Part shown: positions 4,936 through 43,200 of the stretch, in pieces | How positions within the stretch are numbered: position 1 is the first letter of the stretch | How the letters are laid out: each line of letters starts with the position of its first letter | Origin: Saccoglossus kowalevskii | Lineage: Eukaryota; Hemichordata; Enteropneusta; Harrimaniidae | NCBI RefSeq assembly: GCF_000003605.2 | Contig: NW_003150784.1 | Span: forward strand, 44,817-108,816 | Length of the DNA: 64,000 nucleotides | Direction: 5' to 3' | Made by a program: the position numbers and the translations under genes | The notes under the pieces: model-generated | What the model was told of the DNA's origin: nothing | The model's input: the letters and a program-made list of their open reading frames with translations, nothing else | The model's database searches: none

Positions 4936-7727
4936 ATATGTCACTTTGTTTCATTCTCTGCGCCGTGTGGATGAAACTTTGCGGTCCAGCCTGAAAGCCT
5001 GCTTTTTCCTGTTTGAGTTTAAGTTTGGGTTGCTGCCGCTAACACGGCAGCCGACAACGTTGCTGGTAGGATAAGTTATTATTTTTCACCCCTGTGTCGC
5101 CCCCCTTTGACCTTCGTTTGTTTTCTTTGTGTCAGCTTTCAACTGTAATTCGTTTCCCTCACCCATGTCGTTTTCGTATTTATATCTTACCAATGTATTT
5201 AAAAATGAATAGATGTAATGACAGCACCAGAGGCTCGCCACACTTGTCTACCAGTACCTCATGTGCTGAGACTTCTAGTAAGAGGCCCAACAGTGGAGGT
5301 ACCGATATTTTTTGCCCAGCCACATCTATCTCGTTAATTGGGATGAAGGCGAGGCGCAGGCTAGTGGTACTGGGTCTGCACCGAGCCCTTGGGTACTGAA
5401 TACCAACGGGGATGCTGGCAGCCAAGCTGCCGATTTCGGGGCTGAGCAGTTGAAACACATTGCACGTTGCCAGAGTCAGCCAGGAGGAAAGCGGAGGCAA
5501 GAGTAGCGGCGTGCCCCAGGGAGGGAGGACAAGGTGGTGTCTTCTCATCCTCCTTGGGTGGTCATCCACCCCGGCAGTGGGGCAAGCATGTTTGACACCT
5601 CTGCAACAGGGGGGGGGGGCATACATTTGGCGAGAGGCCAGGTCACAACTTAATGTCTACTTCAGGCCTCGTAGGAGCTCGCCCCATGGGAGGAGAGAGC
5701 ACCCACACCTTACAGCCGCCGAACCCAGACCCACATATCCCTGTCACACACAGATTGTGCCGTGTATTCCGGTTTGGAGACAGCGGGTGACCGATGCCTG
5801 GACTTTCCAGGTGTTGACACACGGTTATGGGATACACCTGAAATCTCCATTGGGGGCACTGCCAGGGGACTCCCGTAAGGCTGAAGCAATCAGACAAGAA
5901 GTAGACAGTTTGCTGGAAAAGGGCGCCATACACAAAGTAGATCAGCCGCCATTAAGTCCAGGCTTCTACTCAAATGTATTCGTAGTACCAAATCTACAGG
6001 TGGCAGGCGTCCAGTTCTGGACTTAGGCAGACTGTACATACGTACTCCTCGATCGTTTACGCATGGAGACTCCATGCAGCGTTTTTTTCTCTCCATCCAC
6101 CGTTTCGACTGGCTAGCCTCACTAGACTTAAGCGGGGACTACCTGCACATACCGATGCACTCAGCAAGTTGCCATCTCCTTTGAGTCTCCCAGCTGGGCC
6201 AAGTATTCGGATCTCGAGTGCCCCCCTTCGAGTTATGCACAGCTCCCTACGTTTCACCAGAATGTGTGGAACAGATGGTGCTGCTGCTTCACCAAACTTT
6301 GGTACACATCAATCCGTACCTAGACGTCTGGTTATTACATAACCCTAACAAGTGGTTATTAGCCAAGCAAGTAAGGGACAGGATTTAACACATAACACAG
6401 GATTTACCTCACCAGTTGGGCTCTTTAGTAAATCAGACAAAGTCCCATTCCTACCCAATGCAACAGTTGGTGTTCCTGGGCATGGAGTTTGACACAGAGG
6501 TAAGCTTAGTACATCTGCCTGGCGCAAGTAACCTAGCCGAATGCCTAGTCAGCGTTCCCTCGGTGTCCCTCCGAGAACTAATGCGGATCATTGGATCCAG
6601 ACCTTGGTTCAAAGGGTAGTTCTCCAGGCTGCATTACGCAGCCACCCAGTACAACGCATGTTTGCTACAACACCGAGCACACCTACGGGAACTGGACAGG
6701 CCTGCCAACGTCCTGGCCAGGATGTATAAGGATTCCACCAATGCAGCTTACGACTCGAAAAGGCGAGTGTACACTGATTGATGCAGCGGAAGGGAGATGC
6801 CATCCCTCTGTTCGCCAGGTAGCAGACCTCTTCGTCCACCAGTTTGACGAAGTGGGTTTGTCCTACGCAGCGATAGCTGGCTACCGGTTGGCCTTGTCAA
6901 TTGACAACGCTTTGGGAACAAGACTAGCCGATTGTCAGGAGACTGTTTATTTTCCATAATCAGAGGCCCAGACCCCGAACAAGGGAACCACCCAACTGGT
7001 ATTTGTTAGTAGTGTTGTCAGCAGTGTTGTCAGCTCTAAACAGACCGCCCTTTGAGCCTCTCTAATCTGCACCACTCAATTTTTTGACTATGAAAACAGA
7101 CTTCCTACTGACCCTACTAGGGTAGGCGTCAGTCAGAACGGGGGCATTCTCCTTCTCAGGCGGATGTACTACCTTTATGGACAATCAAGTTGTGCTAAAG
7201 ACAAGAATCTGGTTTCTCGCCAAGAACCAAATCCCAGGACACAATCCCCCGCCAATCGTCATTCCCTGGCTGTCAAACATTGTCGGCCCGGAGGATCGGA
7301 AAGAATTGCTTCTCGCCCGGTTCGAGCACTGAGTTGCTATGAAAACCATACTAAGGATTCGAGACGGGGTGTCAAGCAAATGTTTTTGTGTTACGACCAA
7401 GGCAAGCAAGACCATCACCAGGTGGATTACTGCGACTGCGTTAAAAGTCTATAGAGATACCAAGTCCGAGCACATGATGTCCGTGCGATTGCTATCTCAC
7501 TAGCACTGGCGTCAGGTGCCCCCTCGAACATTTACTGAGGGCAGGCTTCTGGAGAACGCAGAGCATCTTTATCAACTACTTCTCTTCAGGATGGGTTTCG
7601 TTGTAGCAGGTCAGACTTTGGTTGCTGACCCAGCCCGAACGACCACAGGGATCCCTGCGCATAGGCGATAAGTCAGTTTTGCCCTCATGCAGAACTGTTT
7701 CGGCCTTTATTTCAAGCGAGTTACCCC

Positions 7728-7899
7728 AGAATTGGCTACGCCTCGTGGCCTTGGTCATGTGGTTCGTGACGTGAGGGAAAATCTTGAGGTCATGGGGCTT
7801 CCCCTGACCTAGATTTATTAGCTGAATCGCAGATTAATGCCTACAGTTCAAAATAGTCATTTTGACTGACCGGAGTCTATGGTGGGTATGAACTATGTG
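7728..7899 (-). repeat. Right inverted terminal repeat of the DIRS-like element
   Basis: Carries the reverse complement of the left arm in three blocks (about 7731-7779, 7822-7870 and 7880-7899). About 43 bp without a match on the left separates the first two. In DIRS elements a region beside the right repeat normally holds copies of the outer edges used in circle formation; whether this insert is such a region is not settled. Confidence 0.8.
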
Positions 7900-8250
7900 A
7901 ATAGGCGGGTTCCGAGAACCCTCTGCCTAATTTTCATTCATATTTGTCACATACATCAAATGTGTTTCATAATCAGAAAAAAAAATACCTAACTCCATGA
8001 TAACTATCTTTTTTTGTGAAAATGTGGTTTCTTGAACATGCTTCATCTGTTTTCATTAACATTTGGTACAAACATTACACGTGTTGATATGCATGTCCAT
8101 GATGATTCATTTTGTGGTTGGATCAAAATGGCCAACTGGCAGCCATCTTGTTTTTTGAGAATGCATTATTTATCATTTATTTTTGTCACATATATCATAC
8201 ACCTATGTTTAATTGTAGGAATATCTTCCAAAGGCTGTATTAAATATTCA

Positions 8251-9296
8251 TAGTCAAAAAATCAAAATAATATATGAAAAATTAATGAATATAAAAAAAT
8301 TCACATAGATCAGCTAGGATAATAAAAATTAGTCTGGTTGTAAATGAATCCATGAATTGAAAGATTTTCTCCTGAGATACTTATTACAACTATGGGTGTA
8401 AATAAACTTTAACTGACACTCCAAATTGTATATTTTCAAACATACATTGTATGTTAGTCACTTGTGCACGTTCATGTTTAAATTACGATGTATGTAAAAT
8501 TGTGCCTCAATTTCCCGCCATGAAAACATTGAGTGTCATTGGATAACACCACAACAAATAAGCTGGAGAATGGCACTTTACTTGAGTTTGAATACAAAAA
8601 TGACATAAATATGAGAAATAGTAAATAAAATTAAAACTATATATATAACAGCATCACAGGGTTTAAGTTTTATATTGTGACTAATCTTGGCAGTTTGAAT
8701 ATTAATTAGCAAGATAGAATCATGGTTGTAATGTTGTTTTCTCGTAATCCTACTCGTGTTTGGAATTACCACCCACAACAACAAAATATGCAGTAACAGA
8801 TAAGGTTATTGTTATTATACTTCAGACAATGAACAATTGCCAGGTTATTGTTCTCGTTCTAGACGGTACCGATGTCACCATGTATCATAAATACTTACAC
8901 CCACTTGTTGGATTAAGTGCTTTGTGCTGTTACAACAGTGTAATGTCAAAGGTTAAACATTGAGGCATATCTTAAAAATAAATCAATAATCTCCAGTTCT
9001 CGTATTTTACTAATACTAATCAAGATTTTTTGGCTGTATCCCAATTTTTGTTCTTTTGCAGATAGTCGGAAATCTGTAATCAGCAAAATATCGGGTCTTA
9101 CACGTACAATATTCAGTTTGATTGATAGTACTAATCTTCGAGTCAAACTCCTATACTAGTACTTAAAGCCCCCCCCCCCCCGGCCCCTACCTCTAGATTG
9201 CGTTCAGAAGGATCGTAATGTCTGTAACGCACATATCATTTTTGGCTTCTCTTACCAGATCCTAATTTATGAGGGATTGAATAACTTATATTTTTA
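8251..9296. other. No gene recognised
   Basis: AT-rich DNA between two repeat copies. Short open frames here show no recognisable domain. A run of 12 or more C residues ends the stretch near 9169-9182. I see nothing else. Confidence 0.6.
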
Positions 9297-10115
9297 GTCC
9301 CCGTTCGGACGAAGTCCGAAAACGGGGACTATTATTTTGGGTTCGTTCCGTCCGTCCGTACGTTCGGAGCTATATCTCGGACACCCATTGACGGATTTCA
9401 TTCAAATTTTTCATGAAGTCAATACATAATGTCTTGCATATGATAAAGTTACTTTATGATTGATATAATGATCATACATATTGGGTTGTAGGTGCACGTC
9501 ATTTTTTTCGTGATTCGAACAAATATGGCCGACTGGCGGCCATCTTGTTTTTCATGGTACCCATGCTACTTTATATTGAAAACAATGAACGTTTCTGTTT
9601 AAATTTTGTATATACATCTGCACCAACATGATTTTTTGTGATTCAATTCAACGTGGCTGGCCGACGCCAAATGTTTATGCAAAAGCGCTAAATCGTCATT
9701 TTTACATGTCCGGAGCTGTTTCTCAAAGATGACTGGGCCGATTTGGTTATAGGTGCACGCATAGACCCTCCAGTACTGGAGGGTCTATGGTGCACGTCAT
9801 ACTTTTTCCGTGATTCGAACAAATATGACCGACTGGCGGCCATTTTGTTGTTCATGGTACCCATGCTACTTTCTCTTGAATGCCATGAACGTTTCTGTTT
9901 ATTTAAATTTTCTACAAAGATAGTATACAGAGAGATACAACTACATCATCATTATTTTTGTGATTCGATTCAATTTGGCTGACTGACGCCTAAATTTCAT
10001 GTAATGACTAGGCCGATTTGGATCAACGTTGGTATGGTGATCATACATATATAGGTGCACGTCATATTTTGTTCCGTGATTCGAACAAATATGGCCGACT
10101 GGTAGAAGTGCTCTG
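9297..10115 (+). mobile_element. Stem-loop/tandem-core repeat, copy 3, divergent subfamily
   Basis: The head (TAGTCCCCGTTCGGACGAAG, from 9297) is the same stem-loop as in copy 1, but the body differs. Its core units centre on GTGCACGTCAT, then GTGATTCGAACAAATATGGC, then CGACTGGCGGCCATCTTG. They recur near 9490, 9790 and 10060 at a spacing of about 270-300 bp. The last unit is cut off at about 10110, so the right end is uncertain. Sharing a head with a different tandem body is typical of rapidly evolving non-autonomous families. Confidence 0.65.
9760..9789. mobile_element. 30-bp perfect palindrome with flanking duplication
   Basis: Starts CATAGACCCTCCAGT and continues with its exact reverse complement. 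It interrupts a core unit of repeat copy 3. The interrupted word GTGCACG occurs immediately before (9753-9759) and after (9790-9796), while sister units have it once. This looks like a transposon insertion reduced to its two terminal inverted repeats with a 7- or 8-bp target duplication, a length usual for hAT elements. The superfamily is inferred. Confidence 0.7.
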
Positions 10116-10998: not shown

Positions 10999-12202
10999 TT
11001 AATTTAAGACTGCTTCTTTGAATAATTCTATGGATGTTGCCGTTGATTGACATGCCTGGAGACGGGTTTTCAATTTCTGTGCATTTTCAAAAGCACTGTC
11101 ATACTCAGGCTGTTGCAGAACTTCCTTGATTGCCTTGGTCCATTCTTCTTTAGTGCCAGCGCCTACTATCATGCTCTCAGCAATATCTGGAAACTCTTTT
11201 TGCAAGTACTCGGCTAGACCGGAATTTTTAGTTACCAAGACCGGCAATCCAACAGCTATAGCTTCCATTCCAACCAATCCAAATGGTTCACTTCTAGAGG
11301 CCATAATGCAGAGGTGGCTCTGTTTAAGATCTGTACGAATCTTGTCTTGAGTTCCATAAGGATACGGGTTGATTGAGAGTCTGTCGTCCTCCTTGTATTC
11401 ATCGAGAAACTTCTTGGCTTTATCATGTTCATCTTTCGGCACTCCGCGAATAATCCAGACAGGAACTTGCTGATTCCGATCGCCAAAGTATTTTACAACC
11501 CCACTCATTGCTTGAGTGACAAGATCGTACCCTTTTAACCTCTCCACTCCAAGAATACGCCCAAATGTGATTACTTGTATTTTGCCGTCTTTCTTTGGTC
11601 TCTTTATTTCAACGTCGAAGAACTTTGTGTCTGGTTTTGGAAGGAATTCGTGGTGGTTGTCCTTATCCTTATTAAATGCTCTGTACTTATTGTCGAAATG
11701 GTTAAACATTCGTGGGCCAACAGAGAATATGGCATCTGCTTCATCAGCAGCCTTAAGCAGAGTTTCCTCTCTGTCTTGCACTCTATCCGGGCTCCAGCTC
11801 TCCTTGTAGACTTCAATATCTTCTGGAATCACGTGGTTGAATAGAACCAGTTTTGCTGATTGAAACCTGTTCTTTTTTAAATGAATGACAGCATCACCAG
11901 TGATTGGTAGATGTCCAATTATTGCTTGAACGTTGGTGATTTTATCCAGACCAGGAAAAAATGATTTATCATTGATGAACCAATCTACGCATGGATCCTT
12001 GTTTATGAGACGGGCATGTACTTGTGCTTTGATGAGATTTATACCATGTTCACGAGCATCGTCGATGTCTTTATCAGTTGCAGTTAGTGTCAGTGCATAG
12101 ACATCACAATTTCGTGTGTCACTGAGGAGCATAGCAGCCTGGCGATGTATTGTTGATATACCGCCTTTTTCAGTTCCCCATTCATCATTAACCAGCAAAA
12201 TG
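10999..12202 (-). CDS. GT-B glycosyltransferase, large C-terminal exon (family 4, possibly GT4-conflict type)
   Basis: This - strand exon encodes about 400 residues, ending at TAA (10999-11001). It covers almost a whole GT-B glycosyltransferase, which would move a sugar from a nucleotide-sugar donor. The start ILLVNDEWGTEKGGISTIHR (residues 1-20) has the first Rossmann strand and glycine-rich loop. FGRILGVERLKGYDL near residue 213 opens the second domain. SEPFGLVGMEAIAVGLPVLV near 304 holds the E-x7-E donor-binding motif of family 4 enzymes. The acceptor is ctgtttccatag (AG at 12203-12204 on the opposite strand), and the exon starts on the last base of a split codon. Residues upstream of it are intron. 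The 5' exon(s) are not recognised and could add a signalling domain. The VNDEWG...KGGIST start resembles animal GT4-conflict proteins linked to immune-type domain architectures. That placement is from memory and needs a profile search. No signal peptide or membrane segment is seen. Confidence 0.85.
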
Positions 12203-12388
12203 CTATGGAAACAGAAATAATAGTCAACACAACTGCACTGTGATATATGGATTATCAACAACCACACATTTGTGACCTGTATTCAATTTGTGTGACTTTA
12301 TGGAGGCAGACGTCAATCAGCTAAATTAAAGTATAAAGGTCAAACAGTAGTCATGTTGTTGAGTTGTTGTTAGTTATAAACACAAACT

Positions 12389-12414
12389 AATATATATATA
12401 TATACATATATATA
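12389..12414. repeat. TA dinucleotide microsatellite
   Basis: About 13 TA units with one interruption (tatacata). Confidence 0.95.
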
Positions 12415-12914
12415 TTGGGATCATTATAGAATGGAGCTTATTTTTGCACGTATTGTAAGTCAACCTAACATACATACCCCCTATGTGCGATTGTAATATA
12501 CCGATAATAATTAGAAGCAAAACTGTGTACCACTTTACCAGTTAATGGCTCAGTGGGATTGTTTGATTGGTCTTTACAACCCACCCCCTCTTTTTCCTTC
12601 GCCAGAATTAGTCACATTGAATATTTTGGGTTGTATTCTTGACTAGAAATATCGACAGTTTTTTGTTGATTTTCTGGAATTATTTTCAGGTACATGTGAT
12701 GAATGTAGACTTGTTGTGAATGCGAAGGTTTAAATAGTTGACCACTATACAGAATTTGTGGCTCAAAACGCAGGTATACCTGTTTAGCGTCACACCTTTC
12801 TAATGGAAGTGCCACCTTTTGAAGTAGCAGCAAATGGTACAAATAGTGATACCGTACCAGTTAAGCAGTGAATCACAACTATTCGTGTCACTTCTGATTT
12901 CTTAATAAAGACTT

Positions 12915-12924
12915 GTCAGACACC
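12915..12924. repeat. Left 10-bp target duplication of the fold-back element
   Basis: GTCAGACACC immediately before the element. The same ten bases occur at 14400-14409 immediately after it. Confidence 0.85.
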
Positions 12925-13167
12925 CAATCTGATTAAAATCTGATGTAGTGTACGGGCTTTAATTATTTTAGCTATGAAGTTATTTTAATTTTATTTTTCA
13001 TTACTTTTGTTATTAATGCCCTTTTATTTTATTATTTTACTTTGATTTTTTTTAAAATTCCGCCCTACCTACATCTGAGCCGATGCCTATGTAACGAGAT
13101 TTCAACGAGACCCACTATCGACGATTTTAGTCAACGAATCACAGACCTCCTTCTATAGCGCACATGA

Positions 13168-13175
13168 TGACGTCA
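13168..13175. promoter_or_regulatory. CRE/ATF-type palindrome inside the fold-back element
   Basis: TGACGTCA, the full cAMP-response-element palindrome, lies just inside the left arm. About 90 bp downstream a donor-like ATGTAAGTTT follows, and an acceptor-like tgcttccattctag lies near 13891-13904, with an AATAAA near 14060. These could be pieces of a captured promoter and transcript, but there is no coding evidence. Confidence 0.3.
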
Positions 13176-13629
13176 CCGGGCAGAGTCAGGTAGCAAACAG
13201 ACTCAAATAAAATGGTGGATTATACCGACGTTAGCGACCGAGAATGACACGGCTTTTATGTAAGTTTATCATTGTAAAATGCAACGAAAGTCATTTTTAT
13301 GTTAATATTGTGGCTCGAATGGTTCGACTTTAGATCGTTATTTTGCATAGTTATTCTGGGAGTGAAGATTTTGTTTCCACCGGTTCGACCGAACACCGGT
13401 GTCTTTTTCCAGTCGCCTGCCCTGGAGACGGGTGATGTTTTGTTGACGATCGGGCCAAAATCGTCCACGGTATTGAAGCCGTAGCTGTAAATATTCATCA
13501 AATTGTATCAATGTTTTGTACATTATACAATAACTCTTTATTAAGTAATTGAGCTGATTTGGACTGAATAAATATTTTTTTATTTGGAACACATCGCAAT
13601 TGATCAGGAATATTATTTTGCTCCACTTG

Positions 13630-13812
13630 NNNNNNNNNNNNNNNNNNNNNNNNNNNNNNNNNNNNNNNNNNNNNNNNNNNNNNNNNNNNNNNNNNNNNNN
13701 NNNNNNNNNNNNNNNNNNNNNNNNNNNNNNNNNNNNNNNNNNNNNNNNNNNNNNNNNNNNNNNNNNNNNNNNNNNNNNNNNNNNNNNNNNNNNNNNNNNN
13801 NNNNNNNNNNNN
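13630..13812. other. Assembly gap (183 N)
   Basis: A run of N inside the fold-back element. Long inverted arms and AT runs are common causes of such gaps. Protein frames crossing it carry no information. Confidence 1.
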
Positions 13813-14399
13813 TTATACAATTTAAAATCAGTTTGCATTGTTTTCTATAGCTGTTTACAGTGTTCTAATCATTACGATTTACTTATTTTTTTGCTTCCAT
13901 TCTAGATAATTATGCTCAGTGATGTAAAATTGAAGCGATGACTGAATGAACGAACCTTGGCTGGCGAAGATGTATCTGGAAGTGTACACATTTGTTGGAA
14001 GTGAAAAAAATATTCAATGTAATGACAACAATTGTAAAATGCTGTGGAATTTCTTTTGCAAATAAAAATATACTAGCAATTTTCTATTAATGGTTCATTC
14101 AAGTGGGCAAAATATAATGTACAGAAAGATTGCCTGTATACACTGAAAAATAAGCACCGACAGCTGTATAAAAGGGGTCTGTGATTGGCTGTTACTTACG
14201 CGAGATTTGAACGGGACTTACATAGGCGTCGGATCAGATGTAGGTAGGGCGGAATTAAAAAAAATCACAAAATCAAAATCAAAGTAAAATAATAAAATAA
14301 AAGGGCATTAATAACAAATATAATAAAAAATAAAATTAAAATAAGTTTATAGCCAAAATAATTAAAGCCCGTACACTACATCAGATTTTAATCAGATTG

Positions 14400-15079
14400 G
14401 TCAGACACCCACCTTTTGCGCGATGTGTTTTCCGCCGCCGTCATACCTGCAAATGAACTGTATTACAAACTGTCCGAGTTTATATGCAGTTCTTGGAAAT
14501 ACCCGAATGGCGTAATGCCAAATATTCTAATTTTATTGATGCTGTGTACATACCGTACTCTGATCCTCAAACCAGGTCATTGTGCAAAAAATGGGTCACA
14601 CGAATGACAAAAGGGTATTGTTAAGAAAGGGTAACTCTTTCAGAATGGTTTTAAAACGTCATGAAAATGCCTCTCAATTCAATATAACTTGCGAAATATA
14701 GGAACTATTCAAAAAAAAAAAAAACACATTAATTGTCAACTCTGAATATGTTGAGTATATAATCTCCATCTTATCCCGTCCTATTAACTTTTGAAAATAC
14801 TAATATCATGTGAGGCAATATCTCGTGACAATCAGCGCACAGTGCAATGCTCCTTTCGTAGCACGTGATTGGAGGACCTGAATTACCCCTACTTCAACGC
14901 TAATGACGTCAAGGAGAGAGACGATACATTTGAAGTCTGAAGCCAGGCTGCAAGGTTACCCTTGAGGGTCGAGACCTAGAAACTACGTAACCTGTCAATG
15001 GCTTGCAGCTATTTGTAGATAACAAACGATCTGATCTTTAACAGACGTGTAAGTAATTGGAATTGGAATTGGGGAGATG
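14400..15079. other. No gene recognised
   Basis: Opens with the right target duplication (14400-14409). A short frame at 14416-14607 has no recognisable domain. Nothing else is seen. Confidence 0.55.
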
Positions 15080-37274: not shown

Positions 37275-38140
37275 GGTGTGGTAACATTGGTTGGTTAGGA
37301 TGATGTGGATGAGAAGAGGCATAACAACATTTGGGGGTTCTGAGATGGTTGAGATGGGACATGGTAACATTAGAGGGTTCTGAGATGGTTGAGATGGGAC
37401 ATGGTAACATTGGTGGGTTCTGAGATGGTTGAGATGGGACATGGTAACATTGGTGGGTTCTGAGCTNNNNNNNNNNNNNNNNNNNNNNNNNNNNNNNNNN
37501 NNNNNNNNNNNNNNNNGTTGAGGATGGGACATGGTAACATTGGTGGGTTCCGATGTGGTTGAGATGGGGCATGGTAACATTGGTGGGTTCCGAGGTGGTT
37601 GAGATGGGACATGGTAACATTGGTGGGTTCCGAGGTGGTTGAGATGGGACATGGTGACATTGGTGGGTTCCGAGGTGGTTGAGATGGGACATGGTAACAT
37701 TGGTGGGTTCCGAGGTGGTTGAGATGGGACATGGTAACATTGGTGGGTTCCGAGGTGGTTGAGATGGGACATGGTGACATTGGTGGGTTATGAGATGGTT
37801 GAGATGGGACATAGTAACATTGGTGGGTTATGAGGTGGTTGAGATGGGACATAGTAACATTAGTGGGTTCTGAGGTGGTTGAGATGGGAAATGGTAATAT
37901 TGGTGGGTTCCGAGGTGGTTGAGATGGGACATGGTAACATTGGTGGGTTCTGAGGTTGGTGAGATCGGGAAAGGTCGGATTGGAGGGTTCTGGGGTGGGT
38001 CAGATGAGGCATAGAACCAATGGTCTTTCTGGGGTGGGTTAGATGGGGGATAGCGGCATCGGATAGTTCTGAAGTGGGTTAGATGGGACACGGCAACATT
38101 GGAGAGTTCTGAGGTGGGTGAGATGGCAACATCGGTGGTT
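37275..38140. repeat. 40-bp minisatellite
   Basis: About 21 tandem units of 40 bp, unit GGTTGAGATGGGACATGGTA plus ACATTGGTGGGTTCCGAGGT. Inner units are almost identical. Both edges (37275-37320 and about 37960-38140) are diverged, as expected when exchange is most active in the middle. Because 40 is not a multiple of 3 and the unit has no stop on the - strand, all three - strand frames stay open. The resulting proteins (NHLGTHQCYHVPSQPPRNPP-like repeats) are an arithmetic by-product, not evidence of a gene. Confidence 0.97.
37467..37516. other. Assembly gap (50 N) inside the minisatellite
   Basis: The unit phase before and after the gap does not agree, so the gap length is not exact. The true number of units is unknown. 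Confidence 1.
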
Positions 38141-40204: not shown

Positions 40205-43200
40205 GTGAGTTAAATTTCCTGCAGTTCCACTGCGAATATATTCACTAGTCAGTTGTGTCATCACATTACGTGCTTAATTATAATGTCATATCTGCCACGT
40301 GCGTGGTTTTTAGCGTTTTTTGAACTGTGTTTTTCTTGTTACAATCTCAAATCCGTATCAGGAGACAAAATTATGTCAGAGTCAGAACCCTGATACAGAT
40401 AACTTTTCGGCCACACTAAATTAACAGCTTAACAGTGACATTTAACAGCAAATGCTACGTTCTTTTTTTAAGGTTAGTTGTATAAAGATCCACAGCTCCA
40501 TACTTATATTTCTTGTCAGTGTTGTGTCAAATAAATATGTACGTAACAACATGGTTCGAAAGAAAATTATAGAAATTGGTTTGCTACTGCAGGCGTGTGT
40601 GAATAGTCTAGTCTAGTGATAGGAACACATCTTTATATATGACACAAATGCAGTATTTTAGGATAATAATTTAATTTTGTTATTGCATCTTACATTGCTA
40701 GCAGTGTACAGCTACTCTTTTCTAATAGAAAATAATAATACAGTTCTGAGAGGGAATTCAAAATCAGTGTGATTAGTACGTCTATGGTTGGGGCGGAATC
40801 ATTTGATCAAGTTGTCGTATATATATATTGGCACAGTGAGTCCATCAACACATGAACACAAAGAAAATAATAATAAAAAAACAGATTGTGGATGAGTCAT
40901 GACTGACAACATGAAATTAAACGAACACTTTGATGATAATGATGTCACTGCAATACCAGCATATCCAGGCGATGAGGAACTGCATGCAGTATGGATAAGG
41001 GGTTTGGGTTACCTTTCAGCTTGATTACTAGTAAATTGGGTTTGAAACATTGTTAAAATAATACCAATGTCATATTCTTAATGGTTGTGTAATCAACTCC
41101 AAAACTCACCATGGACTTTTTGTAGTTGAATAATCAGTCAAATTGAAATTTAATTAAAATATGTGTAGATAATATGAGTTACTTCATCATCACCTCATGA
41201 ATATTCATGAGATTATTTAATTATATCATCACCTCATGAATATTCATGAGATTATTTAATTATGTCATCACCTCATGAATATTCATGAGATTATTTAATT
41301 ATATCATCACCTCATGAATATTCATGAAATTATTTAATTATGTCATCACCTCATGAATATTCATGAGATTATTTAATTATATCATCGCCTCATGAATATT
41401 CGTGAGATTATTTAATTACATCATGACCTCATGAATATTAATTTAATTGATTGATTGATTCAGAAAAACAAGTAAACAATTAATGGTGACACACTCAATA
41501 TTTCAAATGATTTTGACATTGAAATATCTTTCAATTTAGGCCAGGCAGTAAATCTCTTTGGGATTCCAAACAAATCACTCAAAAGTCACAACAAACATGA
41601 AAACATCTATAGTATATGCTCGCATTTCTGGAATTTTTTTGATGAACCTTTTCATCCAAGCCGATTATGAGTTTCCATGAATCGGATAGTACTTGTCTTT
41701 TTTAATACACAAATACAAAATTGTGCATAAAACAAATGAATATCTAGCAATACCATATCTTATGCTATTATAGTCGTACAAGCTTAGACCCTATCAAAAT
41801 TGAAACACTGAAGGATCTGAGAAAGCTGTTCGTTCAACATATCGGCTAATGAAAGCATCCACGAAAGGCCACGATGAATTGAAAAAAATCATTCAATAGA
41901 CAATGTATTAAGGATGTCAGTCTTCTCTACTTATCTTGTATAAGCAAATCTGTGCAGATGTACGGGAAAATAAGATTGTATTTCAATGTTAGCATTGTGT
42001 CTTGTGATCTGTGGCAGGTAGGAAATAAATTCTGTAACTGGAGACATTTACGTGTAATTTACAGTGTTGAACTTAAGTGAACTTACTTCCTTAGCACATT
42101 CTTTAAGGTTGCTAATGGACTTGTATTAGTCAAAAAACATTTTACTACTAGGTTAGAGTACTCCAGAACTATGTGTGGCTTTTGCGAATTTGATGCCATT
42201 TAATTAAGGGAGTGGAGTAAACAATTTTGCTGATTTGTTGGGAAAATCAATAATTTACAGTTTATAGGGACACATTCATAAGATTTTACCAACTTTAGAT
42301 GTAATTCTAAGCATTTTGAAGGCAATGCAGGGATTAAAAATTGATCTGTACACCCAACACATCATTTGAACTTATACATGTAGATATTGTTGAATAAGTT
42401 AGTGCATGTTACTATGGTTACTAGACAATTGCGATATAATATAACACTTTCAGTCAAGCACAAGATGTTCTTATTGCTATAGGCATGACGATCGCATCTC
42501 TGTTATCTTTTATCTGTCTTTCATTTCTTGCTATGACTGAAAAACTAAAGACATGCTCCTGACATTTGGTTGATGATGGAGGACGTATTGGCATTATGGA
42601 CAGGGGAGAGGAGAGAGGGCTGCATAGTCCTTTGGTATGTTCGGGGTTTTAGGTATTATTGAAAGGGTATTTTATTTTGTTATGTTCAAAATGGCTGATG
42701 TCAAACTTTCTGACTATATTCCTCTCAGTATCCACTTGCTTCCATCAAATATATTTGGTCTAAACCTGTCATATTTCTTCTGTTTGGGTAAAAAAACATT
42801 AAATGTTGACAAAACTATGGAAAAACATAAAGTGTTTTGTACAAAAAGTAGAAATATTCAAGAGCAAAAAAAAATTAACAAGTTAAAAAAAAAGTTTGAA
42901 AAAAGTTGAAAAAAAAAACAATGGTGTCTCATACACATTTGCAGTTTTCCTTTCAAAAGGTATACCATTACTAGTTGAAAAAAATTAGTTGACAGGTTAC
43001 CAAAGTAGATTAGCCATGATTTACCATCAATGTTTCAATTAGACAAAATTTATTTGATTATATAAGTACTGACGATAGTATGTAAAACACTGGAGACCTG
43101 TGAAATTGTGAATGGTCGAAAGTTTACTATAAACTAGTGTGAATTTACGAGTTCTTTCTTCTTGGCAGGGGACATAATTATGTCTTGAGTGTAGCATATA

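Follow-up and report, generated by a model that had tools for sequence, protein, structure and literature searches.

The window, by which we mean the whole stretch of 64,000 nucleotides of Saccoglossus kowalevskii DNA that was analysed, carries on its minus strand (12202-10999) a single exon for a near-complete GT-B glycosyltransferase that is entered in mid-codon. The frame is open for 400 amino acids (12201..11002) and closes with a stop at 11001-10999, while base 12202 occupies codon position 3 and is preceded on the minus strand by a T-rich tract and then an AG. We therefore annotate 10999..12202 as a terminal coding exon with a phase-2 acceptor and a GT4-conflict domain, based on the open frame, the PF20706 profile and a tree. 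The translation contains the glycine-rich loop GTEKGGIST and the motif SEPFGLVGME, with the glutamates of E-x7-E at residues 305 and 313, and the reading frame thus confirms the near-complete enzyme and mid-codon start that the sequence-only reading had described. The frame remains open for 27 codons ahead of the exon, and neither these nor the stretch up to the glycine loop contain an in-frame ATG; hence a 5' exon is expected. Elsewhere in the window there are two minisatellites (37326-38126, with 40-bp units, and 41186-41439, with 39-bp units) and a GC-richer block at 5454-7454, whose plus-strand open frames look by eye like a retroelement remnant; scanned as three separate pieces, the block gave no Pfam match.

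The open frame is far above chance: the GT4-conflict profile PF20706 matches exon residues 2-384 (profile positions 1-375 of 385) with E = 6.8e-78 and a score of 262.7 bits, versus 62.6 for Glycos_transf_1. PF20706 alone is unspecific at its cut-off of 26 bits, which 14 out of 14 ordinary control genomes pass. In ordinary bacterial GT4s the order of the two scores is reversed (47-80 bits for PF20706 versus 110-131 for Glycos_transf_1 in all four scanned), while three bacterial proteins show the same order as the window: L062 (377.6 versus 34.2), L063 (231 versus 25.4) and L064 (218 versus 54.6). A maximum-likelihood tree of 37 rows, three of them with long branches, separated 22 copies from this genome plus four bacterial conflict-type sequences from 11 other GT4s with support of 100/100. 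The four bacterial rows are all plasmid-derived, include two close relatives (L062 and L065), were Pfam-tested in three cases (L062, L063 and L064) and owe their conflict label to the PF20706 profile and to protein size. The outgroup was taken from 29 loci obtained by scanning genome contigs, of which four were Pfam-scanned (all ordinary GT4s) and 11 used, three of these 11 being Pfam-tested as ordinary GT4s. From the genome itself, the tree leaves out L015 (a near-copy of L014), L028, L032 and about ten further places. The window groups with the paralogues L009 and L010 (97/90), within a seven-member clade formed by L009-L014 and the window (99/99). The 17 pattern matches in viral contigs included no relative, and the PADLOC library gave no match to the window. 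Judged from its sequence, the exon is a member of the GT4-conflict group: this placement, put forward in the sequence-only reading, is borne out by a full-length PF20706 match that outscores Glycos_transf_1 and by the 100/100 split. As to the bacterial proteins themselves, L062 (4164-9077) is encoded on a Rhizobium pTi plasmid, close to a SIR2-family gene, a DfrB gene and a Tn3-family transposase, and L063 (4980-8921), also from a Rhizobium plasmid, bears GT4-conflict, B12-binding and radical SAM domains.

Counting paralogues had been suggested as a check, and copies turned out to be many. The PF20706 cut-off is passed at 36 places in the 572-Mb assembly, fragments included, with the window ranking fourth best; five or more of these are fragmentary or contain stops, and contigs C4117 and C1922 hold near-copies, which brings the intact genes closer to thirty in number. 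Contig C343 carries three GT4 copies in tandem. In the same genome we also came across the mitochondrial contig C4830 (17,037 bases; L070 and L071), in which cox1, identified by Pfam, lies on the strand opposite nd1 and cox2, and nd5 adjoins cob (these four named by eye). Its cox1 has ATA at positions that are presumably Ile in animals and a single AAA at what we take to be a Lys position. Judged by the criteria of PMC2697986, these features indicate a hemichordate of the Saccoglossus type. Asymmetron, an early guess from the orientation of cox1, was discarded because its published cox1 shares a strand with cox2 and because ATA here appears to encode Ile.

A candidate for the missing 5' exon (exon -1) is predicted by a splice model at 14413..14446 on the minus strand. 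It reads GT, an ATG (14444-14442) opening MTAAENTSRK, and two bases that, with the first base of the GT4 exon, would form a Ser codon. Its donor scores 9.8 and it is frame-compatible with the GT4 exon; the inferred intron (12203..14412, minus strand) has GT...AG ends, and joining both exons keeps the frame open over 411 codons, giving an uninterrupted predicted protein of 411 residues that starts with MTAAENTSRKSILLVNDEWG. Under the conditions applied (acceptor ≥9, donor ≥9.5, phase 2 and an in-frame ATG, with Ns removed and thresholds set after the candidate had been seen), this is the only candidate in 2.7 kb upstream on the sense strand, with none on the antisense; at least one such exon arises in 2.7% of 300 shuffles, and the antisense strand of all loci yields four in 164,715 bases. 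Just behind the donor of exon -1, the intron holds a DNA-transposon-like insertion (12924..14400) whose terminal arms (12924-13049 and 14275-14400) are inverted, 126 nt long and 95% complementary. The element includes a run of 183 Ns (13630-13812) and is flanked by direct copies of TCAGACACCCA, read by eye as probable target-site copies.

Tiny exons are predicted by the same splice model in the nearest paralogues: ESCNMETRK in L009, SSCNMARNN in L010, and DILCLTFADMAEQSKKRRKYSNNK in L011 and L012. None of the paralogues' exons could be convincingly aligned with exon -1. L013 and L014 have instead a longer conserved exon before GT4, which in L014 lacks an ATG, so that this gene needs more 5' exons. 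As modelled, the exon preceding GT4 is entered in phase 1 and left in phase 2 in the window, L013, L014, L016, L017 and L018, and is entered in phase 0, with an in-frame ATG, in L009-L012.

In some sister genes the GT4 exon is joined or adjacent to other modules. The L017 model consists of a DED exon, a linker exon, a 55-nt exon and GT4; its splice sites are GT-AG and the frame stays open across the junctions. The DED (PF01335, E 3.3e-11) begins in a 5' exon that is missing from the model. L022 has a DED exon (E 6e-9) about 1 kb upstream of GT4, and these two are the only cases of a DED just upstream of a GT4 exon among the at least 85 DED places listed for the genome. Downstream of GT4 in L022, at a distance of about 2.5 kb and on the same strand, there is a second DED (G000:C2347:635628-635852). 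L016 gave a complete three-exon model of 662 residues, comprising leucine-rich repeats (LRR), a linker and GT4 (oriented coordinates 6188-9896 on the minus strand of the locus); its start, MGQEHS, resembles an N-myristoylation site. In L019, an exon that is LRR-like by similarity to L016 lies about 7 kb upstream of GT4, their linkage being unproven. A different arrangement is found in L029 (2821-3306), L030 (2273-2773) and L031 (2443-2901), where GT4 is followed in frame by a conserved C-terminal extension (EGSLIIYITFPNLFSLYTF...SGTL). Pfam gave no match above cut-off for the extension in these three loci; that of L029 alone matches an OLD-like TOPRIM weakly (E 0.0013, 19 bits versus a cut-off of 27), and by eye only the extension appears TRADD-N-like. 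Pfam scans of paralogue flanks covered L016, L017, L022 and L029-L031, while DED and Death were searched genome-wide, and module counts in sister genes are therefore lower bounds.

We looked for a comparable module in the window gene. Pfam searches of the three minus-strand frames of 12201-58302, i.e. 46 kb upstream, at E limits of 1 to 5, found no domain outside the GT4 exon, and thus no immune or NTPase module linked to it. Stops were read as X in these scans, which met at five borders; an exon straddling any of these might escape notice. Control scans in the known frame recovered three of three paralogue modules: the L017 DED (2.9e-9), the L016 LRRs and the L022 DED (8.6e-8, slightly below its cut-off). 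When splice sites were scanned for phase-1 exons at least 30 residues long, one weak candidate came up in the 13.7 kb upstream of the window GT4; the same scan recovered the LRR exon of L016 and missed the DED exon of L017, so that its near-empty outcome is weak evidence. None of the at least 85 DED and at least 82 Death places listed genome-wide is on the window contig, C4089, and at the other end of the gene a stop codon directly follows GT4, with no TRADD-N after it. The Death, TIR or NTPase module that the sequence-only reading had envisaged in the 5' exon is hence not supported, given a short candidate exon and no Pfam domain in 46 kb of the same strand. That reading had set an upstream exon of only a few residues against its proposal, and the candidate, which adds about 11 residues (MTAAENTSRK-S) according to the splice model, comes close to this. 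Three other approaches were discarded: a hexamer coding-potential scan trained on GT4 exons, which missed the L016 LRR and L017 DED exons; a cross-comparison of ORFs in paralogue flanks, with mostly tandem copies and repeats among the matches listed; and short matches common to L009, L011, L019 and position 61.7 kb of the window, which are probable repeats.

These data bear on the strongest alternative, in which the ATG of exon -1 is internal and one or more additional coding exons of the window gene lie upstream, with a death-fold, LRR or other module that is too diverged, split or distant to be picked up. A further exon is possible because the acceptor of exon -1 is in phase 1, as in the corresponding exons of L016 (LRR) and L017 (DED), whose joined frames continue upstream. 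The need for more 5' exons in L014, a member of the same clade, and the unproven LRR exon upstream of L019 point the same way, and a real module can slip through a splice-site scan, as the DED exon of L017 did. Against it, Pfam found nothing in the 46 kb upstream of the window GT4 although like scans recover every paralogue module tried, the splice-site scan produced a single weak candidate, the contig is devoid of DED and Death among the places listed, and the nearest paralogues, L009 and L010, likewise have short ATG-bearing exons. On balance, we regard a hidden module as rather unlikely.

The catalytic residues R215, K223, E305 and E313 are all kept in 11 of 24 aligned copies, the window included; L014 and L015, being near-identical, do not count as independent. 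Both glutamates of E-x7-E are kept in 14 of the 24 and both are lost in six (L021 and L023-L027), while L028-L031 have an altered catalytic site that is difficult to align. The lost or altered E-x7-E or phosphate-binding residues suggest that these ten copies are pseudo-enzymes. Comparisons of the window with L009 and L010 gave dN/dS values of 0.18-0.19 with dS near saturation (0.18 and dS 1.45 for L009, the closest paralogue). Other pairs ranged from 0.12 (L014/L015) and 0.33 (L013/L014) to 0.51-0.58 (L026/L027, L011/L012 and L009/L010). With its four residues intact and a low dN/dS, the window copy looks like an enzyme that is maintained while other family members decay. An AF2 model of the GT4 protein (mean pLDDT 66, residues 7-81 unreliable) has MshA as its best PDB match, followed by other GT-B enzymes, at a TM of about 0.5. 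A housekeeping family-4 glycosyltransferase of glycogen, trehalose or lipid-sugar synthesis, devoid of an immune role, would share the GT-B fold and E-x7-E with MshA and with sucrose-phosphate and glycogen synthases and would keep its catalytic residues as the window copy does, yet it is improbable: the best match is not to Glycos_transf_1 or Glyco_transf_4, profile order and tree set the window apart from ordinary GT4s and on the conflict side, and tandem diversifying copies, fusions of immune type and several paralogues with degenerate catalytic sites fit poorly with housekeeping.

Our preferred reading, to which we assign a probability of roughly 0.6 from the sequence evidence, is that the window gene encodes a compact, active and unfused enzyme of a diversified immune-type GT4 family. 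The window exon would be the catalytic part of a GT4-conflict family gene in a hemichordate, and the predicted product a compact cytosolic enzyme of 411 residues with a short N-terminal tail. With an NDP-sugar as donor, such an enzyme would glycosylate a molecule of the pathogen or of the host in an immune-type response. In sister genes, GT4 would be tethered to death-fold or recognition modules deciding when and where the enzyme acts, and the window copy may work on its own or through recruitment in trans. We infer the immune role of the window gene from its family and their fusions, and a self/non-self effector function is a putative extension of it. More tentatively, the small exon modelled before GT4 could be a conserved splice socket, onto which exon shuffling plugs a DED, an LRR or nothing ahead of one GT4 exon. 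This might have furnished hemichordates with a set of active enzymes alongside GT4 paralogues that have lost catalysis, the latter being possible decoys or receptors, although we consider this scenario doubtful.

Part of this picture is already published. According to PMC8195603, metazoan GT4 domains are closest to the versions found in bacterial conflict contexts, Acropora digitifera has more than 500 GT4 paralogues, and GT4-TRADD-N proteins are reported from cnidarians, cephalochordates and hemichordates, with GT4 also fused to several other domains and occurring outside TRADD-N proteins. The immune role proposed there is the modification of invader molecules. Both the metazoan GT4 expansions and the hemichordate GT4-TRADD-N fusions are therefore known from that study. 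A literature search on PF20706 had no match, and no further paper on GT4-conflict in animals was recognised among titles and abstract openings; DED-GT4 and LRR-GT4 may already be in supplementary tables. What full-length profile and tree evidence establishes here is that this animal exon belongs to a conflict enzyme family of bacterial type, and the exon-level architectures (DED-GT4, LRR-GT4, GT4 with a C-terminal extension and bare GT4), together with catalytic decay, make an immune role testable.

Among known systems, MshA (3c4q) and the sucrose-phosphate synthase of H. orenii (2r60) are the ordinary GT-B enzymes whose folds best match the model, itself of modest quality; the E-x7-E region aligns, but identity is 16-18% in the Foldseek alignment and these are metabolic enzymes. 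The ORF J5287_RS27715 of a Rhizobium sp. K1/93 plasmid (L062) is a bacterial conflict-type parallel, matching PF20706 over its full length and falling on the same side of the 100/100 split. It differs in being a protein of 1637 residues with a C-terminal GT4 and a weak NACHT-like match at its N terminus (E 0.056, below cut-off), whereas our model of the window gene includes an intron and predicts 411 residues. The metazoan GT4 and GT4-TRADD-N proteins described in PMC8195603 are a further close parallel. Unlike GT4-TRADD-N proteins, the window gene shows no TRADD-N or LRR and its GT4 exon ends in a stop; like the metazoan family as a whole, it combines a GT4 near the bacterial conflict versions, a distribution in marine invertebrates including hemichordates, lineage-specific expansion and immune-module fusions among its relatives.
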